Positions 2,199 to 52,442 of a stretch of 52,442 bases of DNA are shown here, in pieces. The notes under the pieces are model-generated. The model was given only the letters and a program-made list of their open reading frames with translations. It was not told the origin of the DNA and searched no databases. Location of the stretch: positions 1-52,442 of IMG/VR virus record IMGVR_UViG_3300034378_000127. The stretch is one strand, 5' to 3'. Position 1 is the first letter of the stretch; every line of letters starts with the position of its first letter. Source of the stretch: a virus. Position numbers and translations under genes: made by a program.

Positions 2199-3413
2199 TT
2201 AGTAAAAAAGATTAGGTTCTTTAACTTCACCGGAGTAGCCTTTGTTTAAAATATCATCGACCGTAATAAGTTCAATAAAAATTCCCTCTTTTTTTACTCT
2301 TGCAACCTCTTCTTTTGCACCTTTACCAAAACTAAAACCAACAATATAACCTTTCATCTTTTTAGTTTTAGTATTTCTATAATATCTTCTTATTGCTGTT
2401 TCAAAATTATCAACAACATTTCTACCTATTTTTTTTGATTGTTTAACCTGAATAGGACAATGCTCTAAAAAACTAAGACCATCTATACCCATGTCACCAG
2501 ATTTTTTTGGACTTGGCACACCATGCATTTCGTTGATAACCCAATATTGAAATTCATAAGGTTTGAAATCTTTTAAATCTTCTGCTTTCTGTGGCATACC
2601 AATAACATTATAATTTTTGTAAAACCCCGGAATATTAGCAAGTCTCTTTTTAATTAATGCCACAGCAGAGGGGGAAATATCAATACCTATCCATTTGCGG
2701 CCTAATTTTTCAGAAACAGCCAAAGCAGTACCGCATCCACAAAATGCATCAAGCACAATATCATTTTCATTTGAAGATGCTTTTATTACTCTTTCCAAAA
2801 GAGCTTCAGGCTTTTGGGTTGGATAACCTAATTTTTCTTTGGTTGAAGATTGAAGCGCAGCTATTTCCCAAACATCCCTAACAATAGCGTCTCTATATTG
2901 TCTTCCGTCTTTATCAATTTTAAAATCATCTTTTTTAAAACCATATTTATGTTGCATATATGAGCGTTCTGTCATGTAATTAAAAGTCCACTTGCCTGTT
3001 TTTGTATAAAATAAAAGTGTGTCGTGTTTTCTCGACCATCGCTTTTTTGTTGCGCCTTGTGTTCTGTAAGCCCAAGCAATTTCGTTTTGAAAATTTTTAT
3101 ACCCCAAAATTTCATCACACATTACTTTTAAGTAATGGGAAGCATGCCAATCACAATGAAGATAAAAGGAGCCAGTGGATTTTAATACTCTATGTAACTC
3201 TATAACCCTATCACGCATCCAATCAATATAAACATTAATACCACCTTCCCAACGGTCTTCAAAACTTCTTATTTCAGCCTCATCGCTCCAAATAATTTCA
3301 TAATTCCTGTTACTAAAAAAAGGTGGGTCGATATAAACAAGGTCAATGCTTTCTGTTTCAAATGTAGACAATATCTCTAAATTATCACCACAATAAAGTT
3401 TGTTTTTATCCAT
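2199..3413 (-). CDS. Cassette 1: DNA methyltransferase fused to Mrr-like endonuclease domain
   Basis: A 404-aa protein. Residues 1-260 form a beta-class-type DNA methyltransferase with catalytic DPPF at 29-32 and the AdoMet motif DAFCGCG at 222-228. Residues about 285-400 look like a PD-(D/E)xK nuclease of the Mrr type: GIDG near 309-312 (Asp311) followed by QVKQS (Gln322-x-Lys324), with strands typical of that fold. One chain could therefore methylate and cut, as in compact restriction-modification enzymes, or the C-terminal domain could only aid DNA recognition. It is the first cassette of the array. No strong Shine-Dalgarno precedes ATG 3413. The methyltransferase call is secure; the nuclease call is likely. 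Confidence 0.85.
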   Translation of the reverse strand: MDKNKLYCGDNLEILSTFETESIDLVYIDPPFFSNRNYEIIWSDEAEIRSFEDRWEGGINVYIDWMRDRVIELHRVLKSTGSFYLHCDWHASHYLKVMCDEILGYKNFQNEIAWAYRTQGATKKRWSRKHDTLLFYTKTGKWTFNYMTERSYMQHKYGFKKDDFKIDKDGRQYRDAIVRDVWEIAALQSSTKEKLGYPTQKPEALLERVIKASSNENDIVLDAFCGCGTALAVSEKLGRKWIGIDISPSAVALIKKRLANIPGFYKNYNVIGMPQKAEDLKDFKPYEFQYWVINEMHGVPSPKKSGDMGIDGLSFLEHCPIQVKQSKKIGRNVVDNFETAIRRYYRNTKTKKMKGYIVGFSFGKGAKEEVARVKKEGIFIELITVDDILNKGYSGEVKEPNLFY

Positions 3414-3515
3414 TATAAATCCATTTTTATAAAATTGTAGTATTAAGTTTATATTTTTAAATTAATTTCTTTTGTTTTTCGGCGCAAACCTATAATCCAG
3501 TGGTTTACAAATTGC

Positions 3516-3542
3516 AAACAACTAGAGGTTATATGAACCTCT
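3516..3542 (-). other. Array entry point: attI-like or junction site
   Basis: On the minus strand a perfect hairpin AGAGGTT-CATAT-AACCTCT (3542-3524), which overlaps the stop codon of the phage gene at 3541-3753, is followed by A and GTTGTTT (3522-3516). From there on the sequence looks like the start of a cassette (TTTGTAAACCA, then TTATAGG). It marks the boundary between phage core and cassettes. Whether it works as an attI, a secondary integrase site or a simple terminator stem is inference. Confidence 0.4.
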
Positions 3543-3753
3543 ATTTTTTATAAATCTTTCTTATCTTCTTACTTATCAATGGTTTAACTATTTTCATTGG
3601 TTCCTCAAGACTCAAATAAAATTCTCTTATTTTTCTTCTCCGGATTTCTTTACGCCATCTGGAAATAAGCTCATCAAATGTTTTCAAACCGTAAAATTTT
3701 CGCCAATGATTCAACACGGCATGATTCTCAACGCTCAACGCAATAGTCTTCAT
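3541..3753 (-). CDS. Small basic protein (70 aa), last gene of the resolvase operon
   Basis: It starts ATG 3753 and overlaps the stop of the RuvC-like gene (ATGA), so it is probably translationally coupled. It is very basic, especially residues 30-45 (SRWRKEIRRRKIREF) and the C-terminal KKIRKIYKK, and predicted mostly helical. It may bind nucleic acid. No family is recognised. It is the last phage-core gene before the cassette array. Confidence 0.6.
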   Translation of the reverse strand: MKTIALSVENHAVLNHWRKFYGLKTFDELISRWRKEIRRRKIREFYLSLEEPMKIVKPLISKKIRKIYKK

Positions 3754-4238
3754 AACACGCCTGCTTTCCAGAATCCCATACCAACGGCGTCAGCTTCATG
3801 CTGTCTATATCTTCTACCATTAATCCGCTCGACGCGTAGAACCATCTTTCTTTCATTGAGTTGACCGAGCCATTTTGGATCAACGAGAGTAACTTTTTTA
3901 TTATACCGTTCACACATATTCCAATAACCACCTATCAGATAAGCTAATGTATCAAGTGAACCGGATAATGAAACTCTTGTACCAAAAACTGTTGGCAAAT
4001 GTCTAACACTTTCAATCCAAACTTCATCTATTTTTTTATTAAGCGTTCTTATTAGAGCCCCAAACTGTAACCACATACTGCACATTCTCTCCCCTTGTGT
4101 AGAAACTCTTCTCTTATTTCTCTCTGGATGGATAAGTCCTGTCATTGGATGTTTATCACCATGAAAAACTGCCCATCCTGTGTTACCGATGCCAGGATCA
4201 ACGAACATTGCTTTATCAGGATATTTAATTATTTGCAC
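3750..4238 (-). CDS. RuvC-like Holliday junction resolvase
   Basis: A 162-aa protein with the RNase H-fold signature of RuvC resolvases: DPGIGNTGWA with Asp14, EVWIES with Glu76, and HEADA with His147/Asp150 near the C terminus. These supply the acidic metal-binding residues that cut four-way junctions. In phages such enzymes resolve recombination intermediates and branched DNA before packaging. The start is GTG 4238 (an internal ATG at residue 11 is possible). It overlaps the helicase gene by 14 nt, suggesting coupled expression. Confidence 0.85.
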   Translation of the reverse strand: MQIIKYPDKAMFVDPGIGNTGWAVFHGDKHPMTGLIHPERNKRRVSTQGERMCSMWLQFGALIRTLNKKIDEVWIESVRHLPTVFGTRVSLSGSLDTLAYLIGGYWNMCERYNKKVTLVDPKWLGQLNERKMVLRVERINGRRYRQHEADAVGMGFWKAGVL

Positions 4239-6628: not shown

Positions 6629-6807
6629 TATGACGCTTCCACATTAATAATTTTAAAATCAGCCATCTCAAGATTTGTCAATAAATGATTCGCGAATCTT
6701 GCATTCTCATCATCAGTCAAATGCTTGTTAAATGCTTCATAAGATGAGTCTCGAATTATTTCTAATAATAAATCTAATTCTGCTTTTGTGAATTCCATTC
6801 TTTTCAT
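6628..6807 (-). CDS. Small unknown protein (59 aa)
   Basis: This short gene runs ATG 6807 to TAA 6630-6628, behind the extended Shine-Dalgarno GGAGGCGTCAGA. The protein starts MKRMEFTKAELDLLLEII and is acidic and helical. Its start overlaps the previous gene's stop (ATGA) and its stop overlaps the next start (TAATG), so it is embedded in a tightly coupled operon. This is strong evidence that it is translated. No family recognised. Confidence 0.7.
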   Translation of the reverse strand: MKRMEFTKAELDLLLEIIRDSSYEAFNKHLTDDENARFANHLLTNLEMADFKIINVEAS

Positions 6808-6959
6808 TCTGACGCCTCCTCTGTGTAAGGTTTTATTTTATCACGAACTTCTTGCAAATCTTTATGGTCATCACAGGCTACCCATCCTTCCTCAGTCATA
6901 ACATGAAACGAACCATCTGCATGCTTTACAACATAACCAATTTTGTGTTGGGATTTCAT
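6804..6959 (-). CDS. Small unknown protein (51 aa), first gene of the operon
   Basis: It runs ATG 6959 to TGA 6806-6804 with Shine-Dalgarno AAGGAGGCGTCAAG. The protein begins MKSQHKIGYVVKHADGSFHV with a likely small beta-sheet, then an acidic helix. It is the first gene after the promoter at 7011-7039 and overlaps the next gene by four bases. No family recognised. Confidence 0.7.
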   Translation of the reverse strand: MKSQHKIGYVVKHADGSFHVMTEEGWVACDDHKDLQEVRDKIKPYTEEASE

Positions 6960-7010
6960 CTTGACGCCTCCTTATTGAATTGTGGATTTCTCTCTTGCTC
7001 TCTATTATAT

Positions 7011-7039
7011 ATTATATATGATTTATAGCAAAAAATCAA
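7011..7039 (-). promoter_or_regulatory. Sigma70-type promoter for the 6959-3541 operon
   Basis: Minus strand: -35 TTGATT (7039-7034), 17-nt spacer, -10 TATAAT (7016-7011). Transcription would start near 7004, about 45 nt before the first start codon. It is the best promoter match in the window and lies directly upstream of a coupled operon. Confidence 0.75.
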
Positions 7040-7112
7040 GTATTTTCTTAGCTAATTTTCTAACTCTTTAAAAATCAATAAGTTATAATTTCATATTTTC
7101 ACTAATTTCAGC

Positions 7113-7260
7113 ATTTTAATACAAAATTAATACACTTTTAATACAACAAACTATCACTATATATTTATATTATAATTTACAAATAATAATATATAAATAT
7201 AAAAAAGGCAAATGTATATATACATTTGCCATATTAAAATTGTATTAAAACTGTATTAAA
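7113..7260. repeat. Iteron region A: 11-bp-phased TTAATA / TATTAA repeats
   Basis: TTAATA occurs at 7116, 7127 and 7138, and the inverted TATTAA at 7232, 7243 and 7254, every step exactly 11 bp (about one helical turn). The two arms flank an AT-rich core (TTATAATTTACAAATAA) and the terminator at 7201-7230. The same arms recur at 41889-42170 and one arm at 40340-40367. It is probably a protein-binding array (operator, activator or origin). The gene-free stretch 6960-7260 otherwise holds the promoter above and AT-rich DNA. Confidence 0.75.
7201..7230 (-). terminator. Rho-independent terminator at the end of the late operon
   Basis: Minus strand: a self-complementary GGCAAATGTATA / TATACATTTGCC hairpin (7230-7207) followed by TTTTTT (7206-7201). 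It lies about 30 nt after the stop of the last late gene (7261-7455), inside iteron region A. Confidence 0.85.
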
Positions 7261-7455
7261 TTATTTCTTTTTTTCCTTCTCCTTATCAACTTCGATTAAA
7301 GATTCTTTTTCTTTTTCAAGAATCTCAACCTTTTTCTTCAGTTCTTGATTTTCTCTAAGCAGCCTTGCACATTCATCTACGAGTCCACGTACATTGTTCT
7401 GCAAAGCAAGAATCTCACGCCCAATTTGTGAATCGATTGCTTCCAGTGACGGCAT
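7261..7455 (-). CDS. Coiled-coil protein (64 aa), last late gene
   Basis: It starts ATG 7455 behind CCAAGGAGGTTCAA. Residues 15-64 form a heptad-rich helix (LRENQELKKKVEILEKEKE) ending in a Lys/Glu tail. Possible roles are a fibre chaperone or adaptor, since it follows the tail fibre gene. No specific family recognised. Confidence 0.7.
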   Translation of the reverse strand: MPSLEAIDSQIGREILALQNNVRGLVDECARLLRENQELKKKVEILEKEKESLIEVDKEKEKKK

Positions 7456-7485
7456 TTGAACCTCCTTGGCTTTAATTGTGAATTG

Positions 7486-9174
7486 TTATACCCATTGCGC
7501 TAAAGCTGCAACGGATGCTCCAGTTGTTTGTGCTGTTAAGATACCACCAGTAAAAGTCAGCGTTATTCTCCAATTCGCTCCATCATCAAGTGTCAAAGTT
7601 CCTGTTAATCCATCACTACCATTAGCATTAAATATTGTATTTGCACGTACTTTCCCGTCAAAACGATATTCAGAAAGACCATCAAATGAAGCAGTATCAT
7701 TTGCATCCTTTCCCACGCCTATTTGCATCTGTTCAATGCCACCCGCGCCGGCGTTATAACCACTTATTTTCAATTCAGGAGTGTTTCCAGAAGCTACGTT
7801 ATTGAAAAGATGTACACTCTGTGCAGTTTGGACGCTATCTTGTAAATAAAGAACACTTATTGAAGATCCAGCTGTTGTGATATAATCATGTCCTCCGGAT
7901 TCATATAATTCTATACCGACTCCGGCTGCGGTGCCAAAAAATCCTTTACCTTCAGCATATAATGCATAATCGATATTAGATCCTGACTCGATATAAATAC
8001 CATAAGCAGAACCACTAGGATCAAAACCCGCATCTGCTTTAACATATAACCCATATAAGCTGCCACCTAAAGAATTTAATGAACCCAATGCCGATCTTGA
8101 ATAAATATACGTGCCAAGCACATCACTGCTTATATTACCAGCCTGTGCATAGCTCTCAATATATGATCCATATAAATTTGTAATAGTACCATTTATTGTA
8201 TTAACATAATTATAATCAGCTATTAAACTACCAATAGTACTACCACTATCATTCATCCGTGCAATATTATGAATACCATAGACATGATCACTTGCATCTG
8301 TAGTGCCAGCTATTTTAATATGAGAATTATATATACCATGATACGTAACAGTTGTATCCACAGCGTTATCTTGAATAAAGAGATGTTTATCTGTTGTAGG
8401 GGTAACTCCAATGCCAACATGACCAGTGAACTCAATATTATCTGATCTATCAATTATAACTGAATCGTCTGTGCCAACTCCAGTTCGACTAATCTTAAGT
8501 TTATCAGCATCGTCATCATCAAGACCTATAAACCAAGTACTTGCTCCAGAATTGCCTATTTCAAGATAAGAATCTGTAGTTCCATCTGGACTTAACACTC
8601 TTATAACAGAATCGCCAGTTCCACCACTAGTGATATGCAGAGTTGTATCTGTAGCGTCTGCTCTATTCACATGCAATGTTGCTGCTGGAGTGTTTGTTCT
8701 TATCCCTATATTGCCAGAACTTCCTTCAATGAAGAGTGCATTTGATACTGCATTAGCATTTGCGATAAAATCAATATCAACTTCTCCAGCGTTAAATTCT
8801 GCATAATCTGTTCCACCTTCAACGAAATCCCAGAACTCTACACTGCCGATCACAGTTGTTTTCCGGTCAGCACGCCATCTGTCATAGCTATCTGTGTCAC
8901 CCTGGTGGTAAAGATATTCTGATACATACAAATCATCATTTATAGTGACATCACCAAAATCATTATCGAGAAACGTAAATGCTGAGCCATCTGTGCTGTA
9001 TTTTTGTAGTGCCCCCACATATGTTTTAGTGTTATCATCATTCTTCCAGACGAATTCATCATATGGAAGTGCTGCCGTAACGTTGTTGACAATAGCTATT
9101 TGTCCATGGTCTGCATTTGCATAAATATTCGCCCAGGTGTCTTCGATATGTGTGATATGAACTTGTTGAGCCAT
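7486..9174 (-). CDS. Tail fibre / receptor-binding protein
   Basis: A 562-aa protein. The N-terminal part holds QQVHITHIEDTWANIY. The middle has repeated fibre-like units with the GI-(R/G)-TNTP and GIGVTPTTD motifs seen in many phage fibres, plus many short beta strands rich in Gly, Ser, Asp and Thr. The C terminus ends in a compact beta domain (LTLTFTGGILTAQTTG-like). I see no S74 autocleaving chaperone at the end. Its place after the tail-tip gene fits a host-binding fibre. Its start overlaps the stop of the upstream gene. Confidence 0.7.
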   Translation of the reverse strand: MAQQVHITHIEDTWANIYANADHGQIAIVNNVTAALPYDEFVWKNDDNTKTYVGALQKYSTDGSAFTFLDNDFGDVTINDDLYVSEYLYHQGDTDSYDRWRADRKTTVIGSVEFWDFVEGGTDYAEFNAGEVDIDFIANANAVSNALFIEGSSGNIGIRTNTPAATLHVNRADATDTTLHITSGGTGDSVIRVLSPDGTTDSYLEIGNSGASTWFIGLDDDDADKLKISRTGVGTDDSVIIDRSDNIEFTGHVGIGVTPTTDKHLFIQDNAVDTTVTYHGIYNSHIKIAGTTDASDHVYGIHNIARMNDSGSTIGSLIADYNYVNTINGTITNLYGSYIESYAQAGNISSDVLGTYIYSRSALGSLNSLGGSLYGLYVKADAGFDPSGSAYGIYIESGSNIDYALYAEGKGFFGTAAGVGIELYESGGHDYITTAGSSISVLYLQDSVQTAQSVHLFNNVASGNTPELKISGYNAGAGGIEQMQIGVGKDANDTASFDGLSEYRFDGKVRANTIFNANGSDGLTGTLTLDDGANWRITLTFTGGILTAQTTGASVAALAQWV

Positions 9175-9563
9175 TATGCGTTCTCCTCAATGAATTTCCG
9201 AATTTTATTGATGTAGATTTCTAATTTCTTCTCTCCTAAGTCTCGCTGCGCTTTTGCTTCGAAAGATGCTAAAAGCTTCTCTGTCAGCTTTTTCTTATAT
9301 ATAGCGGAGTTAATCGCTTCAAGAGATTTCTCTTTTTCTTCTTGAGAGACAAATGATTTTTCAACTGATTTTTTAGCAGCTTTAATTTCATCATCGACAC
9401 GTTTTTTTAAACTGCTTTTATTAACGCCTTTCTTGGATTCCGCTGCAGTTTCATCAAGCAAAGTAAAATGTTTCCAATCTTTGACAGTCTCATTACCATC
9501 TAAGTCTCTGAGAATAGACTTTGGATGTTTCTCAAAAGTAATAGTAATAGATTGTAGTTTCAT
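9174..9563 (-). CDS. Helical late protein (129 aa)
   Basis: Start ATG 9563 was chosen for its Shine-Dalgarno TTGGAGG; the frame extends four codons upstream to a TTG. The N terminus forms beta strands (MKLQSITITFEKHPKS); the rest is Lys/Glu-rich helix, likely coiled coil. It sits between the large tail-tip protein and the fibre, and overlaps the fibre gene start. It could be a tail adaptor or assembly factor; no family recognised. Confidence 0.65.
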   Translation of the reverse strand: MKLQSITITFEKHPKSILRDLDGNETVKDWKHFTLLDETAAESKKGVNKSSLKKRVDDEIKAAKKSVEKSFVSQEEKEKSLEAINSAIYKKKLTEKLLASFEAKAQRDLGEKKLEIYINKIRKFIEENA

Positions 9564-9577
9564 TTTTTCCTCCAAGT

Positions 9578-12500
9578 TTACATTTGATCTAATTTATCTC
9601 TGTTATCACCATATTCGGTTGTCGTATCCTGCCAATCTCTATCATCCCCAAATAAATTCATGACATCCTGAATATCAAATTCCTCCGGGATTGTCTCACG
9701 TTTCATTATTGCATCGATAGTAATCAGATAAGGCGGATTTGGATTAAATTCTGCTTTAAATAAAATACATTCTATCGTTACTCCATCAGTCTGGTGAGGC
9801 AAAGTAATCGAGAACTCATGTCCTTCCTCCCAAGTATGAGCTGTCGTGTAGTGTACTTTGAATTGAATTCTTGGATTAAACATCCAGCTGATTCTTGTTG
9901 CAATATTATATTCTGCAATCGCATCAGCATCTTCACCGTTTGCCCAAAGTAATTCAGATAAATCTTTCGGAAACTTTCCTATTTCATGTACTCGTTTGTA
10001 TAGCTCATTACACTGGTTCCAATATTCCTCGGCCAGAAATGGGCTCGAAATCCCTTCAACATAATTACTATTATAAGTTGAAGCACCTGAATTGATGAAT
10101 CTGATAATCTCTTGATTCTTTTTTGCTCCTATGCTGTATTGATAATCGACAAACGGTTCTGGAAATACCTCTGATGGATTTGGTTCTGTAATTTTTATTG
10201 ATGTCCTATCAATAATGTCTGCAAGTGTCAAAGCGTCTGATGGATTAGTAGTTTCTTTAATAAGTCGCTTCACAGATTCAAATCCGTTTTTATCAATCCA
10301 ATTGATGAGAAACAAATCCCGACAAACTGAACGTTTCAACGAATCAGAATAGGCTTCACCTCGGTCAGTTATCACACGGGCAATTGAATATAGATCAGCC
10401 CACGTTTTCAAATCTTCATCTTCAAAAGATCCTTCTGCCCAAATATAACCGCTAGTATACGAATATGTGAGATTTGCATCCATTGTAATAATAGCAAGAC
10501 TGATGGAACTTATCGTTGCTTCTTCCCGGTTGACGCCATCAGTGATTATTACCCGTTGGTCTATCCTGAACGTCGCAGCTTCCGCGATCGTTGTCGTTGT
10601 TATTGTGTTCACGCCACTGGTAGCAATTGTGCCTTTCGAAACATTTATCAGCGCATTTTCCGCGTAATTCTTTCCCCAGTCTACTGAGGGAGGATCAGGA
10701 ATGCCGCTTGAAGGAGGATCGGAGACATCACTGTAATTCTGGAGACGACTGACATGCTCCATCAGATCAAGCGGTGAGCTCATCATATCTGTCGAAGTTT
10801 TCCTTCCGAGCCACGTATCGTTGAATACTCTACCAGCCATTGGACTATATAATTCTCGTCCGAGGGGTATACTGCGCTCGAAGACGAACGCAATCTCGCA
10901 AATATCTAAAAATGTCGTCGACTGAGCAGGAGCATCTCTGTCGGTATTCCACATAATAATTGTGTGATTAATAGCTCTATATAAATCTTCATTCGTAACA
11001 GAAGGCATCTCTAGTTTTTCATGACCATATTCTGCTTTCCTAAAACAATCGTATGCTAGATTGAAGTAAAAGGGCTTGTCGTATCGTGGAGGATTATCCA
11101 AAAAATAAAAATCAGGGAGGAAAGACACATCAGCAGAAGTTGGGTAGCAGGTAAGACTCAGGTCAGCTGCCAGTGGAATATTAGCTATCTGAGTATAAGC
11201 TCCAATGAATCTTCGTTGATATACATTAACAAATCCACTATTGCTATCATAATTAGACATAAAGAGAAGATATGTCTTTTTTATCTTATATCCCGTTGGA
11301 AACTCTGGAGGAAATATTTTCAATACAACGATTCCCTCATCATCGACTCCATGAAAAAGAATATTTCTAAGATAAGTATTAGAATATTTGTCCATTATAT
11401 TAGCAATCGATCCAGAGGTTGACCAAGTAGTACCGCCAAGCCTCCAGAATCCTGGTGAAACATAAACAAAACCCAAACCAATAAAATGTGGATCAATTGT
11501 TCCTAATTCGGTTGAATCCCCATAATATTCAATACTTGCAGGAGGTTTGATTATATAACCAGTAAGATAGCTAGGATTACCTTCAAATAATTTAGCTACA
11601 ATCACTACTCGGTTTTTGTCTCCATCGCCACTATCATCATAAGCATACTGTGGAAGTCTCTCATATGTGATTGGAATTTCATCTATATCCGCATCGGTGT
11701 TCTCAGTTGTAACTTTTGCTATCTTTTTCGATTGATAACTTGTCATGTAGAATGCTCTTGATATCGCTGTGCCATCAATATCGAGATAGTCTTTACACGG
11801 CCAGACATCGCACTCGTATTCATTCGTAATTGTATAAAAACTAATCCATGTTTGTTCACTATCACTTCCATTCCAATTTCCTCTTAAATGGCTACTGAAT
11901 ATCGTATCGATTGTCAATTCGATTCGAGAAGTACCCTTTGTAGAATCCAAATTAACAGTAGCGGCAGTGATTTTCCTATATTTTCCTACTGTCTTGTTTC
12001 CCGATTGATTGTTCTCAACTACTTTGATATACTTCCCGACGAAATAATCCAACGAATGCTGTCCTGTTAATCCAGGAATGCCATTCTGTTTCCAAGTAGG
12101 CAGACCATCTTCTCCGTAAATTCTTACTAGATATTTTTCTGGCGAGTCAGATAGTTGAAACACTCTAGCGTATCGTGCTGGATCATATGTCGCACCCAGA
12201 TTTGTTTTCATCGTCAATTGATTAACAGAAATGCTCTGTATTTCACCTCCCTCAATACTACTAGTGTCTTTCAAATAAACCAAATCTCCTATTGAGAATT
12301 TTGAACCATCTTCGACGTGTACTATCTTCTGTCCTCCAGTAGCTGCGATAGTTAAATCAGATGAGATACTATCGCCAACAATAGGAAAGACCGACTGTTG
12401 GAGCATGTAATCATCGGCAACTTCAAATTCGATATTTGTCGCTGAATCAAAAACTCTATTTTGTAAATGTCTGTAAACTTCTTCGATATGTCCGATGCGA

Positions 12501-31101: not shown

Positions 31102-34100
31102 TTATGCTGCTGTCATCTTCGCTTCAGTGTATGTAGTTCCATCATCGCTAACTACTTTTTTCACAAGGGCTGTGCCAGCATTATTATAGAATTTTTTCAC
31201 TGTCGAAGTCGATGTACCCTTATTACGTATTGCTGCCCAATGATAACCAAGGATTGTTGCAACTGTTGGCGTTGCACTGGGTACACCTGCTGATGGTTCA
31301 TCCATTACTTCGTTAAACAGAGTCGAAATATCACCAGTGGCTCCAGCAACAACATTCATACCATCGCCTGCACCGAAACCAGTAATTTGTATTCCATCAC
31401 TATCACCGCCTTGAGCAGTGAACTGTACAGCGTCGCCAGAAGTTGCACCACCCTTCACGACTAATCCAACTCCTGTCGATCCTCCTTCGACGTATAGACC
31501 TGGATTACTTCCTGTTCCAATTAATGACAAAGCAGCGCCATCAGTAGAAGTAATTTTCAAACCATCATTACCAGTACCGCCGCTTGTAATATCGAGCGCA
31601 TCATCATCAACTGAGACAATCTTCAATCCGCTACCACCACCAGTTCCACCTTTAGTAAAGAAGCCATGCCCACCACCGGAACCTCCACTTATATTGACTC
31701 CTGAACCAGTACCCGTTGCAGTAATTTCTATTCCATCGCCTGCGCCACCGCCGCTTGCACTAATCCGCATCGCGCTCACTGAACCACCACCATCAAGAAA
31801 TATCGCATTATCATCTCCTGAAATTAATGAGAAGGCCTTTCCACTTGTCGTTTCAATATCGATACCTTTACCGGAAGTAGTCGTGACTTCAATGCCATCA
31901 CCTGATGTAGCTCCACCGGCGACTGCAATGCCTTTTCCTGTCGTGCCAGCTGCAACTGACAAGCCTGAACCTGCACCAGAACCTGTAACTGTAATGCCAT
32001 CGTTCGCTCCACCAGAGCTGATATCCAATCCTTTACCATCCGTGGCAGAAACGCTAATTGCATTACCTGAAGTTCCTCCACCCTTAATTTCAAAACCGAC
32101 GCCTGTTGTTCCACCTTCAAGATACAGTGCTGAGCCTGATCCATGTCCAGCAATATCAAGACCTCTACCATTTGAACCAGTAGATTTTATTATAACAGCT
32201 GTACCAGCAGAATTCTGAATGTCAAATTGTTTCAGAGTGAGAGTCGCAACGTTTCCAACAATAGAATTCTGCCCAATTGTTTCAAGATCTGCTTCAGCTG
32301 CCTGAATTTCATAAGTCGTCGTAGCATCAGGAGTGGTTTTCCAATTAGGACTTATAGTTGCTATCTTCGTTGTCTCATCATAATCTGTTATCATCCTTGA
32401 CTGACCGGAACCTGTTCCTCCTGTTGTAAGGATACGTGTACCATTATAATAATCAGCCACTGCACTTTCACCTGAGGCAAGTTTAATTGTAGATGCTGTA
32501 GAACCTGCCTGCGCTGTACCACTTGCAAGTTCCGAAAGGCCACTGACACTGATTGTTCCGACTGCATCAGCAACAGCCTCATTAGAATCAGTTGTCTGGT
32601 CAAAATTATTTACACCATTCGTCTTGTTTGCCATTGCGAATAGCATTTTAGCAAGTGAAGCACCTTCTCCAAGGTCAGAAGGAGTACCGATCTCAGCAGC
32701 ATTAATGCCACCACTAGAACCACCAAGATTCATTCCATATCCCCCTGTAGAAGAAGTTCTTATTGCATCACCACCGCAAAAAATATTTAGACCATGAGAT
32801 GGCCCTGACAAATAAATGACACTAGTACTTGCACCTGCAGATGCAGAAATGGTATCACTTGCAGTAGCAATGAGCTTTAAAGCACTTCCAGAAGTGGTAC
32901 CACCTGTTGCTTCAATAGCATGACCTGATCCATGTCCCGCATATACAATTCCTTTTCCATTACCACCTGTTGATTTCATAGTAACAGCATCACCAACACT
33001 ATTTTGAATATCGAGAGCCTTAAGATAGAGCGTAGCATTATTCCCATTGGTAGCTTGTCCATCAATAGAAACAAGATTTGCATCCAATGTTCCTGAAGCA
33101 GTAACCCAAGCCGCATCTCCACGATTACGAATTGCTTCAAGAGAATCTGTTCCCGTAGCGAATGTAGCACCTGCCATATCAGCAAGATTGTCGGCAAGTG
33201 AAGCACCACCACCAAGATCACTCGGAGTACCAATCTCAGAAGCAGAAATATCTGTACCTGTTCCTGAACCTGAAATAGAAAATCCTATACCTGAACCACC
33301 ACCCGCACTAAACACGACAGCATTAGTTGCTCCCGAAGATGCATTTATAGCAACACCATTGCCTGCTGCTATATTGAATGCTCCTGCTCCGCTACTAAAT
33401 TGTGTCGCCCAAGAACTAGCAGAACCAGTAGAAAAACCAATTCCACTATTTGAACTTGCATAAATACCATTTCCACTATTTGAAGCTGCCACTAAACCAT
33501 GCCCTGAACCATGACCAGCAATATCAAGACCTATTCCATTGCTGCCAGTAGATTTAACAATCATAGCGGGTCCGGCATTATTTGTAATATCAAATTGTTT
33601 CAGAGTCAATGTCGCGGCGTTTCCGACAATCGAATCTTTTCCTATTGATTCAAGATCTGCCTCAGCCGCCTGAATCTCATACGTAGAGGTAAGGTCTGGA
33701 TTTGTTATCCAGTTAGGAGATATTGAGGCTACTTTTGTCGTACCGTTATAATCGGTTATAATACGCGATTGTCCTGCTCCGGTATTACCTGTTATAAGAA
33801 TCCGCGTACCGTTATAAAAATCATCAACTGCAGATTCACCGGCAGCTAAAGTAATAGAACCTGCTGCTCCTGCCTGTGCTGTTCCGCTTGACAGTTCTGA
33901 AAGACCACTGACGCTGATTGCTGAAACGGCATCGGCAATAGCTTCGTTTGAATCGGTGCCTGTTACAAAAGTTGCACCGGCAAGGTCACGGAAATTTTTA
34001 CCGATATTTGCGCCGCTTCCCAAATCTTCTATTGTTCCGAATTTTGGTTGCATATCGGCAGTATCAGTAAGTATTGCGCCGGTATCAGATTTTACTGCAG

Positions 34101-41888: not shown

Positions 41889-42170
41889 TTTTTAATACAC
41901 ATTTAATATACTTTTAATACAACAAACTTACATATATAGTACATATTTTTTACTTTACATTTACTCAATTATATTTTCATTTTTTTATATTATAACTTAT
42001 TGATATATATTATTATATATTATTATTTGTAAATTATAATATAATTATAAATGTATATAAATCAATGACTTACAGGATAAAGCAATAAAACACAAGTAAA
42101 GCATAGGTAATGTATATATATTTGTTGTATTAAAGCTATATTAAAACTGTATTAAAATTATATTAAAAAC
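41889..42170. repeat. Iteron region C: two arms of 11-bp-phased repeats
   Basis: TTAATA at 41892, 41903 and 41914 (left arm) and TATTAA at 42128, 42139, 42150 and 42161 (right arm); every step is 11 bp. The arms are inverted relative to each other and flank about 200 bp of AT-rich DNA, which includes TTATTATTTGTAAATTATAA, the reverse complement of the core of region A (7160-7190). The 311-bp non-coding stretch 41870-42180 holds nothing else recognisable. Candidates are an origin, a partition site or a regulator-binding array. Confidence 0.75.
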
Positions 42171-42180
42171 TAACAAAAAA

Positions 42181-42540
42181 CTACACACGAACTATATGGC
42201 AACACATCCGCCTTTTACATGCTTCATCGATTGTGAATTTCGTCCCTCGGGAACATCCATCCCATACAACAAGTACGACATCAGCATTTCGCAAAATTGT
42301 CTTGTTCCTTACCAGTGGAGCGCGTTTCCCATGCACTGAATAGCAGGGGAAATACATATGCAATGGTCTCCCATATCGTCGCGCAATCTTCTCCGCTACA
42401 GCGTCAACACCCATCGCACCACCAGAGACTATTTCACATTGACAGATCTTCCAACCACATCTACTAAGCAGTTCCACAAGCCCCTCAAATACTGTAACAT
42501 AATCTGTCACTGTGCGGCTTCCCACTATTGCGACTCTCAC
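42181..42540 (-). CDS. SLOG/DUF2493-like nucleotide-binding protein
   Basis: A 119-aa protein beginning MRVAIVGSRTVTDYV, continuing ICQCEIVSGGAMGVDAVAEK, the classic VGSR...SGGA.GvD pattern of YspA/DUF2493 SLOG proteins, which bind nucleotides or related ligands. Later LRNADVVLVVWDG fits the family. It starts GTG 42540, overlapping the previous stop. The role in phages is unknown, possibly nucleotide sensing or anti-defence. Confidence 0.85.
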   Translation of the reverse strand: MRVAIVGSRTVTDYVTVFEGLVELLSRCGWKICQCEIVSGGAMGVDAVAEKIARRYGRPLHMYFPCYSVHGKRAPLVRNKTILRNADVVLVVWDGCSRGTKFTIDEACKRRMCCHIVRV

Positions 42541-48071: not shown

Positions 48072-48977
48072 TTATCGGTTTTGTCGAGCAACTCGTCTTG
48101 CATCACGTTTTTTCTTTTCGAACTTCGCTTGTCTTATTTTTTCTGGTGGTTTACCATCGGTAAGGTCTGCATAAGTTTCTTTCTGCTTATTATTGAATGC
48201 GCGAATAAGATATTCATATGCCTCCTGTTCGCTATTACCCATTGGTATACGATGAATCTTCTCATTGTTCGTTGTTTTGAAGTGTCCATGCACATTTGAC
48301 TTTGCCATCACATAATCGTCACCGACAATTTGTAACCATCGCTCTTTATTTGCAAAATGGTAATAACCAATTACATCTGAGAACTCCCAATAGAATTGCA
48401 GACATGCTGGAGAAAAATTTGGTTCAATGCGAAAGGTGTTTCGGCCATCAAAAAGTTCGCGATCCGTTATTTTCTCATGCGAAGTGACCGAAAGACCGAT
48501 ATCGATTGCCTGAAAGCGTTTTTGTAAATTCTCAAACTCTGTGCGAACCATGCCCCACGTTTTGCCATAATCGTTCTTGTCAGATGGATGGATGCAGTTC
48601 TCGCGTTTACAAATGAATTCAAGCGCCCGTTTATACGCTGGGTCACCTGTGTCAAAACATGAGTGGTCGACCTTTCTTTTATCCTGTTCCAGAGCATCGA
48701 CCCATGAAACCCCCTCTTCCCAGGATTGCAGCAACGGAGTCGCAAAAAGCGATAAACCCTTTTGCGCCGCTTCCCAGCGGAAAAACAGGACTTTTTTCCC
48801 GAACTGGTCAACAAGGGAAGTCTTACCGATGCCTGTCATGCCATAAATCACGATCATATAGTCCGTCAACCGCTCAGGCACTTCGGTTCGCGCTGAGGGG
48901 ATAGAAGGTAATTTCTGACTCGTTACTTTTTGTTTAACTTTTGTTGATGGAGATATTGATTGTTTTTTGACCGGCAT
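48072..48977 (-). CDS. Sak4-like RecA-type ATPase
   Basis: 301 aa. Walker A YGMTGIGKTSL near residues 44-54, followed by KKVLFFRWEAAQKGLSLFATP and a Walker-B-like strand later. Resembles AAA_24/Sak4 phage ATPases that pair homologous single strands. The N-terminal ~40 residues are basic and Ser-rich. C-terminal tail is Lys/Arg-rich. It neighbours the ssDNA-binding protein and nuclease, consistent with a recombination module. Shine-Dalgarno AAAGGAGGCCGCGC. Confidence 0.8.
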   Translation of the reverse strand: MPVKKQSISPSTKVKQKVTSQKLPSIPSARTEVPERLTDYMIVIYGMTGIGKTSLVDQFGKKVLFFRWEAAQKGLSLFATPLLQSWEEGVSWVDALEQDKRKVDHSCFDTGDPAYKRALEFICKRENCIHPSDKNDYGKTWGMVRTEFENLQKRFQAIDIGLSVTSHEKITDRELFDGRNTFRIEPNFSPACLQFYWEFSDVIGYYHFANKERWLQIVGDDYVMAKSNVHGHFKTTNNEKIHRIPMGNSEQEAYEYLIRAFNNKQKETYADLTDGKPPEKIRQAKFEKKKRDARRVARQNR

Positions 48978-49147
48978 GCGCGGCCTCCTTTCTTGGCGAA
49001 AAAATCTATAACTTTCTGTAAATTGATAACTACTGGTTCAAATTCTCGAGATAATTCTTTCATTATTATCTTGAACTCGTAATTTATTTGTTGACCGAGA
49101 CACATTGTCGTACGCGAAAATGGACAGACTCTATTTTTCTTTTTCAT
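48923..49147 (-). CDS. Small unknown protein (74 aa)
   Basis: Start ATG 49147 (MKKKNRVCPFSRTTMCLG) behind GGAGCTGGATGG, overlapping the nuclease stop by four bases. It overlaps the start of the ATPase gene by 55 nt. Cys-rich N terminus (CPFSRTTMC), helix (KIIMKELSREFEPVVINLQK), basic tail. No family recognised. Confidence 0.55.
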   Translation of the reverse strand: MKKKNRVCPFSRTTMCLGQQINYEFKIIMKELSREFEPVVINLQKVIDFFAKKGGRACRSKNNQYLHQQKLNKK

Positions 49148-50106
49148 CCATCCAGCTCCGGCGAAACACAATCTTTTTGCACATACCCGTTGAGATGCCC
49201 ACAGGCACAAGCCTCGAGGAACTCGCATTTATAAGGCATCATGCACGCGAATTCGTTTTTGTACACTGCGCCTCCGCTGATCACATTCTCGGCGTCGATT
49301 AATTTCAGTTTCAGCTCCTCAGCGAATCTTCTCTTGTCCGCTGGCGTGAACGCTATCTCGTAACGATGGAAAAAATTATCAGGTTCTTTGCTTATGACGC
49401 TGATCATTCTCTCTGTATATGCTTTCAGCGTTTCCCCAATATGTAACTTGTGGCTTGGTTTTCGCACAATATTATAAAGCACGCCGCGGATATTTTTACG
49501 CGTGTTCTGCTCATAAATATAGGTATAAAATAAGCACTGAAAATCGAACGAGAGATGTTTCTGCAAGAAATCGTCTCGCACATGAGATTTTGTCTTATGC
49601 TCGATGAGCCAGGGTTGATTTTTCTTGTCCAGATACTCGCCATCAATTTTCGCCCGTAGCTTGTATTCACCGCATTCCGCTTCCCAAATCTGCTCAACGC
49701 GCTTGAATTGTTTCTTAGTGAAATCTTCATCATACCGCTCTAAGTAAACGATGAATAATGCCGTAGCTTGCGCGGCGTCGAACTGAGCGGCATCCTTAGT
49801 TTTCGCGGAACCCTTTTTATAATTTTCTTTTATAAACTCATCGAGCCATTTTTTGATTTTATCAATCGCCGGTTTCGATCCATTCGAGTAGATTTTATCA
49901 AGCACATCATGGAACATCGATCCGAAACCTGTATTCAGAACCTTATCCGGATGGCTCCAGCGGTTTATCGCCAATAGCCCGCGGAGACGACAACACATGA
50001 AATTTGCCAGCAAGGATTGTGTGATACCGTCGCGCAGCATATTATATTCCTTTTTCGATGGCGGTTGTAATGTCTTGATTGACTTCGACGTGCCCTTCTT
50101 GGTCAT
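49144..50106 (-). CDS. RecB/Cas4-like PD-(D/E)xK nuclease
   Basis: 320 aa. N-terminal LRDGITQSLLANFMCCRLRG with GFGSMFHDVLD, nuclease core LRAKIDGEYLDKKNQPWLIE with EHKTKSH (Asp and Glu-x-Lys), and C-terminal cysteine cluster (KCEFLEACACG) that, together with an N-terminal Cys, could hold an iron-sulphur cluster as in Cas4/AddB. Processes DNA ends for recombination. Start at 50106 with AAAGGAGGCGTTATT. ATGA overlap with the UDG gene. Confidence 0.85.
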   Translation of the reverse strand: MTKKGTSKSIKTLQPPSKKEYNMLRDGITQSLLANFMCCRLRGLLAINRWSHPDKVLNTGFGSMFHDVLDKIYSNGSKPAIDKIKKWLDEFIKENYKKGSAKTKDAAQFDAAQATALFIVYLERYDEDFTKKQFKRVEQIWEAECGEYKLRAKIDGEYLDKKNQPWLIEHKTKSHVRDDFLQKHLSFDFQCLFYTYIYEQNTRKNIRGVLYNIVRKPSHKLHIGETLKAYTERMISVISKEPDNFFHRYEIAFTPADKRRFAEELKLKLIDAENVISGGAVYKNEFACMMPYKCEFLEACACGHLNGYVQKDCVSPELDG

Positions 50107-50681
50107 AATAACGCCTCCTTTAGCTGTCGGATGGTTTGTAAATAATAAGGTGAGCTCGTCCCTCCGCTCCGTAGCAGCGCTGCTGGATGTATTATTCGCA
50201 CTGCTTCAGGAAACTCTTTTTTATAGTATTTCTCGGCAATAGCGCCGAGAAAAATAACATGTTTTGGTTTCACAAGTCGGAATATCTTCATCACGTTCTC
50301 AGCACAGGCAAGCACCTCATCAGATAATGGGTCGCGATTCTCTGGTGGTCGACACTGCACACAGTTATATATGTAGAAGGAATCTAAATTTATTTCTTTT
50401 AACATAATATTAAGCAATCTACCTGCAACTCCAGTGAACGCGATTCCGGTGACATTTTCTGAAGCACCAGGAGCCTCTCCGAGGAATAATACTTTAGCTG
50501 GAATTATGCCGCGTCCTTTAACAACTAGACGGCGTGTTTTATGTAAACGACAATTTTTGCAAAATTCTTTCATATGTTGTTGTGGGGAGTGATGTGCCAA
50601 CTCCTTAGATAACTGTGCGGCTTTTCTTTCGAGTCGATCACATCGCTCCTGCCAGTCTGATTCTAACATTCTATGATGCAT
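50103..50681 (-). CDS. Uracil-DNA glycosylase (type 4-like)
   Basis: 192 aa. CKNCRLHKTRR, then VLFLGEAPGASENVTGIAF, GVAGRLLNIML, YIYNCVQCRPPENRDPLSD, ACAEN and HPAALLR, matching family-4 UDGs with a 4Fe-4S cluster held by four Cys. Removes uracil from DNA. It is the first phage-core gene after the cassette array, 55 nt from attC site 10, so its expression may depend on cassette read-through or a promoter in the last cassette. Confidence 0.9.
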   Translation of the reverse strand: MHHRMLESDWQERCDRLERKAAQLSKELAHHSPQQHMKEFCKNCRLHKTRRLVVKGRGIIPAKVLFLGEAPGASENVTGIAFTGVAGRLLNIMLKEINLDSFYIYNCVQCRPPENRDPLSDEVLACAENVMKIFRLVKPKHVIFLGAIAEKYYKKEFPEAVRIIHPAALLRSGGTSSPYYLQTIRQLKEALL

Positions 50682-50735: not shown

Positions 50736-50795
50736 CCACAACGTCCGATGCATGGCCGATGTATGTACTCATATTTCGGCCTGCATTTGTTGTAC
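50736..50795 (-). other. attC-like recombination site 10
   Basis: Minus strand: R'' GTACAAC (50795-50789), 2-nt spacer, arm ATGCAGGCCG (50786-50777), loop, arm CGGCCATGCAT (50758-50748) with one extra A, 5-nt spacer CGGAC, R' GTTGTGG (50742-50736). 60 bp with full geometry. The methyltransferase stop codon lies inside it. It closes the array. Confidence 0.85.
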
Positions 50796-51503
50796 GCTGT
50801 TTTCAGAATCTCCACCAGTGCTGTTTTCGCCCTGGTCGAACAAAGACAATTGCGCTTGAGCATCTCGAAGCCGATTGCGGGCTATGTTTACATACTCTAA
50901 CTCTTGTTCTATGCAAATAAACCTGCGATTAAGAGCGTGGCAAGCCAATGCTGTTGTGCCACTACCAGCAAACGGGTCCAATACTAAATCATCCGGTTTC
51001 GTAAATAACTCCAAGCACCATTTGAATAAAGGCACTGGTTTTTGTGTGGGGTGGCATTTACCATCGCACTTGTTTATATAGGAATCAGCGCGGCTCATGT
51101 CAAAAATGCGAATTGGTTTATCGTTTGCGCTTGTCCACGCGATTTCACCATCAGTCATATACCCGCGCTGAATTTTGTTCCAAACAAGCCAGCAGCTACT
51201 TTGTGGCAACCGCATATAGTTGCCGCCCCACATTATTTGGTTTTGACTGACGCGAAGCATCTCTGTAATAACCTCAATATCTGGTGGCGCATTGTCCCAT
51301 TCATAGCAAGCATACCTCTTCCATCGACCACTATTAGAAACGCGGCCCGAATCACTTATTTGGTTTTGCGCCACATCATAACCGATACCGTAAGGAGGAT
51401 CAGTCAAAACCAAATCCACGCTCTTGTCACCAAGCTGCTTTAGAACCTCGTAGCAATCGGCGTGTATGATTTTACCGACCATGTTTTCTATTGTGTATTT
51501 CAT
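50769..51503 (-). CDS. Cassette 10: DNA methyltransferase (N4/N6 class)
   Basis: 244-aa DNA methyltransferase with DPPYG at 35-39 in LVLTDPPYG, later GKCHPTQKPV target-region pattern and AdoMet motif LVLDPFAGSGTTALA. C-terminal linker is Gln/Asp-rich. The order (DPPY first, then FAGSG) indicates the beta class. The stop (50771-50769) falls in the R''-side arm and loop of attC site 10. Leader box ATTTATAG lies upstream of ATG 51503. The likely role is protecting phage DNA from restriction. Confidence 0.88.
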   Translation of the reverse strand: MKYTIENMVGKIIHADCYEVLKQLGDKSVDLVLTDPPYGIGYDVAQNQISDSGRVSNSGRWKRYACYEWDNAPPDIEVITEMLRVSQNQIMWGGNYMRLPQSSCWLVWNKIQRGYMTDGEIAWTSANDKPIRIFDMSRADSYINKCDGKCHPTQKPVPLFKWCLELFTKPDDLVLDPFAGSGTTALACHALNRRFICIEQELEYVNIARNRLRDAQAQLSLFDQGENSTGGDSENSVQQMQAEI

Positions 51504-51542: not shown

Positions 51543-51624
51543 GTACAACGGGTTGCCAAACGGACGCTTTACAGTACACTAATCAAACAGGCTGCCCTGT
51601 ATTGCGCTCCTTTGGCTGTTGTGT
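51543..51624 (-). other. attC-like recombination site 9
   Basis: Minus strand: R'' ACACAAC (51624-51618), 1-nt spacer, arm GCCAAAGGAGCGC (51616-51604), loop with AGGGCAGCCTG, arm GCGTCCGTTTGGC (51567-51555) with one extra G, 5-nt spacer CAACC, R' GTTGTAC (51549-51543). 82 bp. Very similar arms to site 3. Confidence 0.85.
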
Positions 51625-51645: not shown

Positions 51646-51849
51646 TTAATCTTCAGCGGGCGGGTTATAATTAATTACTGGCTGCAATAGGTCAGCAAAA
51701 GTTAAGTTACCAGCCTCTATTTCATCTATAATTTTATTTCCAACTTGTTTAAAATCGCCAATTGTTTTAAGCCCATTATCATCACACACTTTCTTGGCAG
51801 CATCCTTGACAACACTAAACTGTTCTTTTGACAAATTTCTATAAGCCAC
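51646..51849 (-). CDS. Cassette 9: small unknown protein (67 aa)
   Basis: Start GTG 51849 (MAYRNLSKEQFSVVKDAAKK) behind GAAAGGATC. Helical, acidic C terminus. It ends TAA 51648-51646, 22 nt before attC site 9. It has no recognised family; small helical proteins of this kind occur as cassette cargo. Confidence 0.6.
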   Translation of the reverse strand: MAYRNLSKEQFSVVKDAAKKVCDDNGLKTIGDFKQVGNKIIDEIEAGNLTFADLLQPVINYNPPAED

Positions 51850-51906: not shown

Positions 51907-51967
51907 ACACAACGTTTGCGCCTATACGATAGTACCGTTTCGGTATTTTGTATAGGCGCTGTTATGC
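51907..51967 (-). other. attC-like recombination site 8
   Basis: Minus strand: R'' GCATAAC (51967-51961) overlapping the TAA stop, 1-nt spacer, arm GCGCCTATAC (51959-51950), loop with its own small hairpin ACCGAAACGGT, arm GTATAGGCGC (51927-51918), 4-nt spacer, R' GTTGTGT (51913-51907). The 10-bp stem is perfect, so no extrahelical base is visible. Confidence 0.82.
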
Positions 51968-52222
51968 GGCGTTGGCCGTTTCCTTAGATTTCTGCGCTTG
52001 CAAAACCGGCATAACGATTTTCTCGTAGATACGAATCTGTTTTTCGTAATCGGCATCACCGCTGCCAACAATTGCAATGACTGTGCCAACATCTAACCCC
52101 CGCAATTTAGAATAAAGGGTGCGAACCTCGTTGTTGTAAAAAAAATGATTAGCCCACCATTTGCCATGATACTTTAAACAGTATGACATCAAATCGTGTT
52201 CCAAATCTGCAACAAAATGCAC
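51962..52222 (-). CDS. Cassette 8: small unknown protein (86 aa)
   Basis: Start ATG 52222 (MHFVADLEHDLMSYCLKYHG) behind GCAAAGGAGGCGTTGTGC, an extended Shine-Dalgarno resembling those in the phage operons. The chain contains WWANHFFYNNEV, then beta/alpha IAIVGSGDADYEKQI. Stop TAA 51964-51962 lies in the R'' box of attC site 8. No family recognised. Confidence 0.65.
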   Translation of the reverse strand: MHFVADLEHDLMSYCLKYHGKWWANHFFYNNEVRTLYSKLRGLDVGTVIAIVGSGDADYEKQIRIYEKIVMPVLQAQKSKETANAA

Positions 52223-52274: not shown

Positions 52275-52355
52275 GCATAACGTCCGACACAGGCTGAAGT
52301 TGCGTCAAGCAATTTGGGCCGTAGCGACAGCGGAGCCAGCCTGTGTTTGTTGGGC
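52275..52355 (-). other. attC-like recombination site 7
   Basis: Minus strand: R'' GCCCAAC (52355-52349), 2-nt spacer, arm ACACAGGCTG (52346-52337), loop, arm CAGCCTGTGT (52296-52287), 5-nt spacer CGGAC, R' GTTATGC (52281-52275). 81 bp; R'' matches the RYYYAAC consensus exactly. The cassette-7 ORF ends inside this site. Confidence 0.85.
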
Positions 52356-52442
52356 GCTGTTCGCGTCCGCTCCGCTATCAACTTTCGGCTCACAGGTATC
52401 ATCGTAGAGCAAAATGTTCGACACCATCCATTCGTAACCGCA
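52305..52442 (-). CDS. Cassette 7 protein, C-terminal part (gene crosses window ends)
   Basis: Continues in frame from position 1: residues 15-59, starting CGYEWMVSNILLYDDTC and ending ATAQIA at TGA 52307-52305. Its last codons run into attC site 7. The protein has two cysteines and is otherwise unremarkable. If the window is not circular, this is a truncated gene end of unknown start. Confidence 0.55.
   Translation of the reverse strand, partial: CGYEWMVSNILLYDDTCEPKVDSGADANSAQQTQAGSAVATAQIA

Follow-up and report, generated by a model that had tools for sequence, protein, structure and literature searches.

An integrase-less array of about ten gene cassettes in a tailed-phage genome, probably built in trans by a host integron integrase

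We identified an array of about ten integron-type gene cassettes in a 52,442-base virus record, which we analyzed over its entire length (the window). The array lies on the minus strand and runs from position 3522 to position 1, through the ends of the record (1/52442), and on to position 50736. We classify it as a CALIN, a cluster of cassettes lacking an integrase, that was probably built by an integron integrase (IntI) of the host acting in trans at a secondary G^TT site. A sequence-only reading had proposed a cassette array here, and our analysis bears this out, since the matches between cassette start boxes and R'' boxes put the array beyond chance. The arrangement of a complete integron, with intI and attI in cis, was not found, as no intI was detected.

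The record encodes tailed-phage proteins (terminase, portal, major head protein, and tape measure), as well as a DNA polymerase, a primase, a Sak4-like protein, an exonuclease, a RuvC-like protein, and a helicase, and every ORF of at least 270 aa lies on the minus strand. An exact terminal repeat of 10-299 bases was not found in the record, while a 59-aa ORF belonging to cassette 7 spans its two ends; therefore, we read the record as circular. The array is flanked by an ORF of 70 aa (3541-3753, minus), which overlaps the RuvC-like gene (3750-4238), and by a gene of the uracil-DNA glycosylase (UDG) family (50103-50681, minus). Elsewhere in the genome, the phage replication region encodes a small SLOG/DprA-like protein (42181-42540), and two AT-rich regions (7114-7262 and 41890-42167) have TTTTAATACA-type repeat units in common, in direct and inverted orientation, which are possible origin or promoter repeats. 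The ORF of 1224 aa contains a 300-nt direct repeat (32135-32434 vs 33503-33802) with 73% identity. A search of Rfam gave no match at the gathering score.

The cassette units are about 0.26-1.4 kb each. Seven attC sites were assigned by our script (sites 1, 2, 3, 7, 8, 9, and 10) and one by hand (site 6), whereas two are degenerate (sites 4 and 5). Eight of the ten have R''/R' boxes with AAC/GTT and an inner L''/L' stem. All ORFs assigned to cassettes are on the minus strand, and mechanically predicted plus-strand ORFs of up to 133 aa are also present. The GC content of the cassettes is 39-49%, except for cassette 1 (32%), and that of the remaining phage is 39.5%.

The following coordinates all refer to features on the minus strand. 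Cassette 1 opens with the start box S1, GTTGTTT (3516-3522), which forms the left junction (the G is presumed to be phage and TTGTTT cassette); it encodes a 404-aa N6/N4 DNA methyltransferase (2199-3413) and ends with attC 1 (2075-2133; R'' AAACAAC, R' GTTGGTG). Cassette 2 contains an ORF of 107 aa (1708-2031) for which no family was found, and a 195-nt attC site with a 10-bp perfect L stem (1679-1873; R'' CACCAAC, R' GTTGCAC). The 75-aa ORF of cassette 3 (1438-1665) matched no family over the curated cut-off, and its attC site is at 1375-1430 (R'' GTGCAAC, R' GTTGCCT). Cassette 4 encodes a Dam-like DNA adenine methyltransferase of 145 aa (887-1324), and its degenerate attC site (830-899) has an intact R'' box (AGGCAAC), an R' box without GTT, and a stem no better than shuffled sequences. 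For cassette 5, the longest frame is 492-863, with the true start probably near 810, and the degenerate or unresolved attC 5 (483-521) has an intact R' box, GTTAGCT.

Cassette 6 has a 56-aa ORF with no family found (257-427) and the hand-assigned attC site of 167 nt (96-262; R'' AGCTAAC at 256-262, R' GTTGTGC). The 59-aa ORF of cassette 7 is in two parts (1-42 and 52305-52442) and ends inside attC 7 (52275-52355; R'' GCCCAAC, R' GTTATGC). The 86-aa ORF of cassette 8 (51962-52222), again with no family found, has its stop codon within the R'' box of attC 8 (51907-51967; R'' GCATAAC, R' GTTGTGT). Cassette 9 combines an ORF of 67 aa with no family over the curated cut-off (51646-51849) and attC 9 (51543-51624; R'' ACACAAC, R' GTTGTAC). 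Cassette 10 encodes a 244-aa N6/N4 DNA methyltransferase (50769-51503) and carries the last attC site of the array (50736-50795; R'' GTACAAC, R' GTTGTGG). Altogether, seven of the ten cassette ORFs (2, 4, 5, 6, 7, 8, and 10) terminate within their own attC sites.

In a mobile cassette the start box is complementary to the R'' box of the same cassette, because the two pair in the free circle, while the boxes within one arrayed attC site are free to differ. In nine of the ten cassettes, the start box and the R'' box of the same cassette are reverse complements (eight at 7/7 positions, one at 6/7). This count is biased toward matches, because we picked two R'' boxes by hand (cassettes 4 and 6) and adopted a third (cassette 2) from the script after first reading a different box. 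Between R'' and the neighboring R' box, 0-2 of the four variable bases are in common in the eight attC sites compared. When the nine box pairs were permuted 200,000 times, no permutation reached eight exact matches, and the maximum was seven.

The automatic count of matched-box links, obtained with the script pattern NNNNAAC...L''...L'...GTTNNNN, is freer of this bias. It gave six links on the minus strand of the array and two on the plus strand (palindromes). No link was found on either strand of the phage outside the array (2 x 46.9 kb), and five were found in 80 phage contigs selected by TerL as controls (1.64 million strand-bases). The link of S1 arose through a weak 171-nt candidate that we regard as chance and not as an attC site. 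The same script found links in Tetrasphaera phage TJE1 (NC_019930), in the Vibrio and Shewanella phages, and in 10 of 80 IntI loci; it is insensitive, giving no links in the published CALIN phage MW202573 and in the other 70 IntI loci, many of which are cut short. Six of the seven attC sites that were folded had z scores of -1.8 to -5.4 (0-9 of 200 shuffles were as stable), unlike attC 4 (z -0.1), and the junction of cassettes 4 and 5 is degenerate. A generic palindrome scan proved non-specific, with 12 matches on the other strand of the array and 41 and 38 in the remaining phage at similar scores, and was thus replaced by the matched-box search.

Both ends of the array fall at GTT boxes, as had been proposed. 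On the left, the array starts abruptly at the bare box GTTGTTT (3516-3522), the complement of which is the R'' box of cassette 1, directly after a perfect 8-bp hairpin, TAGAGGTT-(5 nt)-AACCTCTA. We place this hairpin at 3523-3543, one base further on each side than the 3524-3542 given by the sequence-only reading; it overlaps the stop codon of the 70-aa ORF (3541-3753, minus) and is terminator-like on both strands. Its DNA folding z score is -3.3 (one of 200 shuffles was equally stable), and of 1200 GTT sites sampled in this genome, just 2 are preceded at a distance of 0-3 nt by a hairpin of such stability. We rejected a hairpin-adjacent border as a general rule: the border is unusual in this record, ordinary in TJE1, where 139 of 1200 GTT sites have a hairpin as stable, and without a stable hairpin in Polaribacter phage P12002L (NC_028924). 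On the right, the array ends with the R' box of attC 10, GTTGTGG (50736-50742, minus), in which TTGTGG is presumed to be phage; the UDG gene starts about 55 bases further on.

The flanks imply an empty site CTCTAG^TTGTGG between two co-oriented phage genes, with ...AACCTCTAG directly joined to TTGTGGTAAATTCTG... at the junction. Secondary recombination sites, termed attG, consist of a short G^TT core without attC or attI structure. With just a G^TT core beside a terminator-like hairpin, the left border is no less consistent with a secondary (attG-type) site than with an attI-like site. The attG sites were described by Loot et al. 2024, as cited in excerpts of PMC12444791 and PMC12901181. No array-free relative was present among the matches listed in single-protein scans with the helicase, UDG, and DNA polymerase, which perhaps did not cover the nearest records. 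Likewise, no relative above about 50% protein identity appeared among the matches listed in TerL (best 80) and portal alignments. In loci L286-L292, the TerL, portal, and head genes alone were matched, out of 19 query proteins.

The borders also bear on a rival origin that we judge unlikely, in which homologous or illegitimate recombination transferred the array whole from that of a bacterium and it is now static. Such a capture does not predict both of the observed borders: the array begins precisely at a start box that matches the R'' box of cassette 1 at 7/7 positions, and it ends at the last R' box. The two degenerate attC sites do fit a static block, and genes for a Sak4-like annealing protein (48072-48977) and a PD-(D/E)XK exonuclease (49144-50106) lie near the array. 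For phage CALINs, Qi et al. (PMC9892861) moreover suggest off-target recombination, either homologous or illegitimate.

A source of recombinase was sought in the phage itself. The sequence-only reading had seen no tyrosine recombinase in any frame, and the profile check agrees: six-frame searches of the record with PF00589 and TIGR02249 (IntI) gave no matches, and neither did PF00239, so that no serine recombinase was detected. In 14 positive-control genomes, PF00589 matched in all 14, TIGR02249 likewise in all 14 but never over the cut-off, and PF00239 in 10; in addition, TIGR02249 found IntI over the cut-off in three of eight other virus records. A search of the record with an IntI protein as query, which had no positive control, returned nothing at E<=10. 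An attC DNA pattern search found no viral contigs. Recombination of the cassettes in trans by host IntI is plausible; an IntI, a host, or an empty-site relative was not found.

As to the host, Shine-Dalgarno-like 4-mers are present at 29 of 52 listed phage genes and at 3 of 9 cassettes (three of those starts were guessed), as raw counts; their presence in the phage genes was taken to speak against a Bacteroidota host. A Bacteroidota-type promoter motif was considered for the cassettes and set aside, having just two strong matches. A T(T/A)(A/G)TAG(G/T)-like motif recurs in seven cassettes, about 15-30 nt past the cassette start (near 3494, 2054, 1354, 825, 467, 75, and 51521, minus), and is a candidate that may represent a cassette-borne promoter.

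Cassettes 1, 4, and 10 carry DNA methyltransferase genes, and no convincing family was found for the other cassettes. The cassette 1 protein has a C-terminal Mrr-like match below the Pfam cut-off, and the cassette 4 protein matches PHROG 111 at 7e-18 and Pfam Dam just under the cut-off. The cassette 10 protein has phage matches in 1648 records, including MW202573 (41%) and TJE1 (40%), and other phages score like these two. Among the ten cassette proteins, those of cassettes 1 and 10 alone had matches in 285 loci.

Both this kind of object and the central idea of the sequence-only reading, which is sensible, were already published in 2023. Excerpts of Qi et al. 2023 (PMC9892861) report 17 CALINs in phages (virulent ones included), methyltransferases among the phage cassettes, use of five of six tested phage attC sites by IntI1, and a terminator at the border of TJE1; thus, with phage CALINs and IntI1 activity on record, recombination in trans is not a new idea. 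In common with our array, the TJE1 CALIN is a set of intI-free cassettes carried by a virulent phage, with matched boxes and a related N6 methyltransferase (40% identity). Its first box, GTTGGAT (position 2), matches the R'' box of its cassette and lies 3 nt past the annotated terminator palindrome. Unlike our array, it has three attC sites as published, and its border hairpin is ordinary for its genome. The CALIN of P12002L (Qi et al. 2023) shares with our array methyltransferase cassettes, one long and one short attC spacer, and no intI in the published analysis; in contrast, its ORFs run against the attC polarity (divergent attC directions as published) and its border lacks a stable hairpin. 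Class 1 and Vibrio chromosomal integrons have the same R''/L''/L'/R' attC plan, AAC/GTT cores, and cassette order, but they possess intI and attI. Bacterial cassettes whose intI was lost are described for T. phagedenis in excerpts of PMC3607928.

A scan with the cassette 10 family yielded 80 viral loci (the best 80 of 589), three of which, the IMG/VR contigs L211 (1-8323), L248 (1-4476), and L229 (4115-7871), contain multi-cassette arrays of the same spacer class as in this phage together with a related N6 methyltransferase. These contigs carry terminase or head genes, and PF00589 and TIGR02249 had no match in them (the records, of 14-34 kb, may be fragments). In contrast to our array, the ORF orientation relative to attC is reversed. 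These arrays suggest that the arrangement recurs beyond the phages reported in 2023. L211 has more than 12 small ORFs, almost all on one strand. The 80 methyltransferase contigs (1.42 million strand-bases) gave 50 links vs five in the 80 TerL contigs, and at least three links were found in four methyltransferase contigs (L211, L229, L248, and L269) compared with at most one in any TerL contig; we claim no enrichment, since the links are concentrated in a few contigs and many single links are chance-like. Phage PH101 was rejected as a further case, with one plausible link between cassettes and other links that are chance-like. Among IntI loci, the phage KX853513 (Virus Rctr41k, 6641-10101) encodes an IntI-like protein (39% to Shewanella IntI), and its matched-box sites are 127-131 nt long. 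Three IMG/VR records (L110, L113, and L224, from records G007, G008, and G006, respectively) have IntI over the TIGR02249 cut-off with matched-box links nearby.

The attC sites of the array differ from those of class 1 integrons, in which the bulge is in the L'' arm on the coding strand, as it also is in TJE1. The extrahelical base is in the L' (3') arm in attC 1, 3, 9, and 10 (by script) and 6 (by eye), and it is absent from attC 2, 7, and 8; none has the class 1-like base in L''. The spacers are uneven, of 1-3 nt and 4-5 nt. Judged by spacers and bulges only, reading in the opposite direction would be possible, with the recombining unit on the plus strand, the ORFs antisense, and each attC body traveling with the ORF on its other side. 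We consider such a reversed polarity quite improbable. In its favor, on the plus strand the first spacer of the sites is the long one (mostly 5 nt) and the bulge falls in L'', like class 1; the long spacer also comes first on the ORF strand of L211, L248, and L229, and the plus strand of the array yields two links. However, the array would then open with an attC site whose outer box has no matched partner and close with a bare box, whereas on the minus strand a bare matched box comes first and an attC site last. In addition, seven of ten cassette ORFs end within the attC site downstream of them, and the ends of the arrays in P12002L and L248 show (by eye) the same polarity relative to the spacers; L248 has one more plus-strand ORF beyond its last box. 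We favor the minus-strand reading because of the borders, the ORF ends, and these two arrays, the ends of which were compared by eye. Sites such as these, in which the bulge sits in the arm opposite to that of class 1 sites, could conceivably constitute a structural class of attC that another IntI lineage recognizes or that is read on the other strand.

An assembly chimera, with two bacterial contig ends joined to a phage contig, is hardly credible: the array does sit at both ends of a record without an exact terminal repeat of 10-299 bases, but the 59-aa ORF (with a GGAGG motif ahead of its ATG) crosses these ends into attC 7, the box pair spanning them agrees at 6/7 positions, and phage genes abut the array on both sides.

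If a host integrase assembled the array, cassettes would have been gained while the phage infected a host producing an integron integrase. According to excerpts of PMC8946536, attC hairpins recombine as single strands, and replication and phage infection are among the routes that allow folding. IntI would first recombine the folded single-stranded attC sites of free cassettes with the secondary G^TT site just downstream of the terminator hairpin, and later cassettes would recombine at sites already in the array; successive events of this kind would add cassettes in one orientation. The phage may then retain useful cassettes, e.g. those for the three DNA methyltransferases, which could shield its DNA from host restriction.

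This record adds to the published cases a long and well-bordered CALIN with three methyltransferases, an unusual bulge position, and further similar phage contigs, and with its exact borders, its roughly ten cassettes, and its methyltransferases it is a good test case. Three 2025 papers on anti-phage genes in integrons are cited in excerpts of PMC12444791. A broader idea, which we advance tentatively and expect is rather more apt to prove wrong than right, is that phages use host integrons as a lending library of counter-defense genes. On this view, integrase-less arrays, often including an N6 DNA methyltransferase cassette, recur in unrelated phages; the IntI of an infected host would load them at a secondary G^TT site, and the arrays would counter the anti-phage cassettes kept by bacteria in the same integrons. 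If phages gain and lose cassettes through a host integrase, they could move cassettes between bacteria, and if that integrase serves phages, they would draw on the very gene pool that bacteria use against them.
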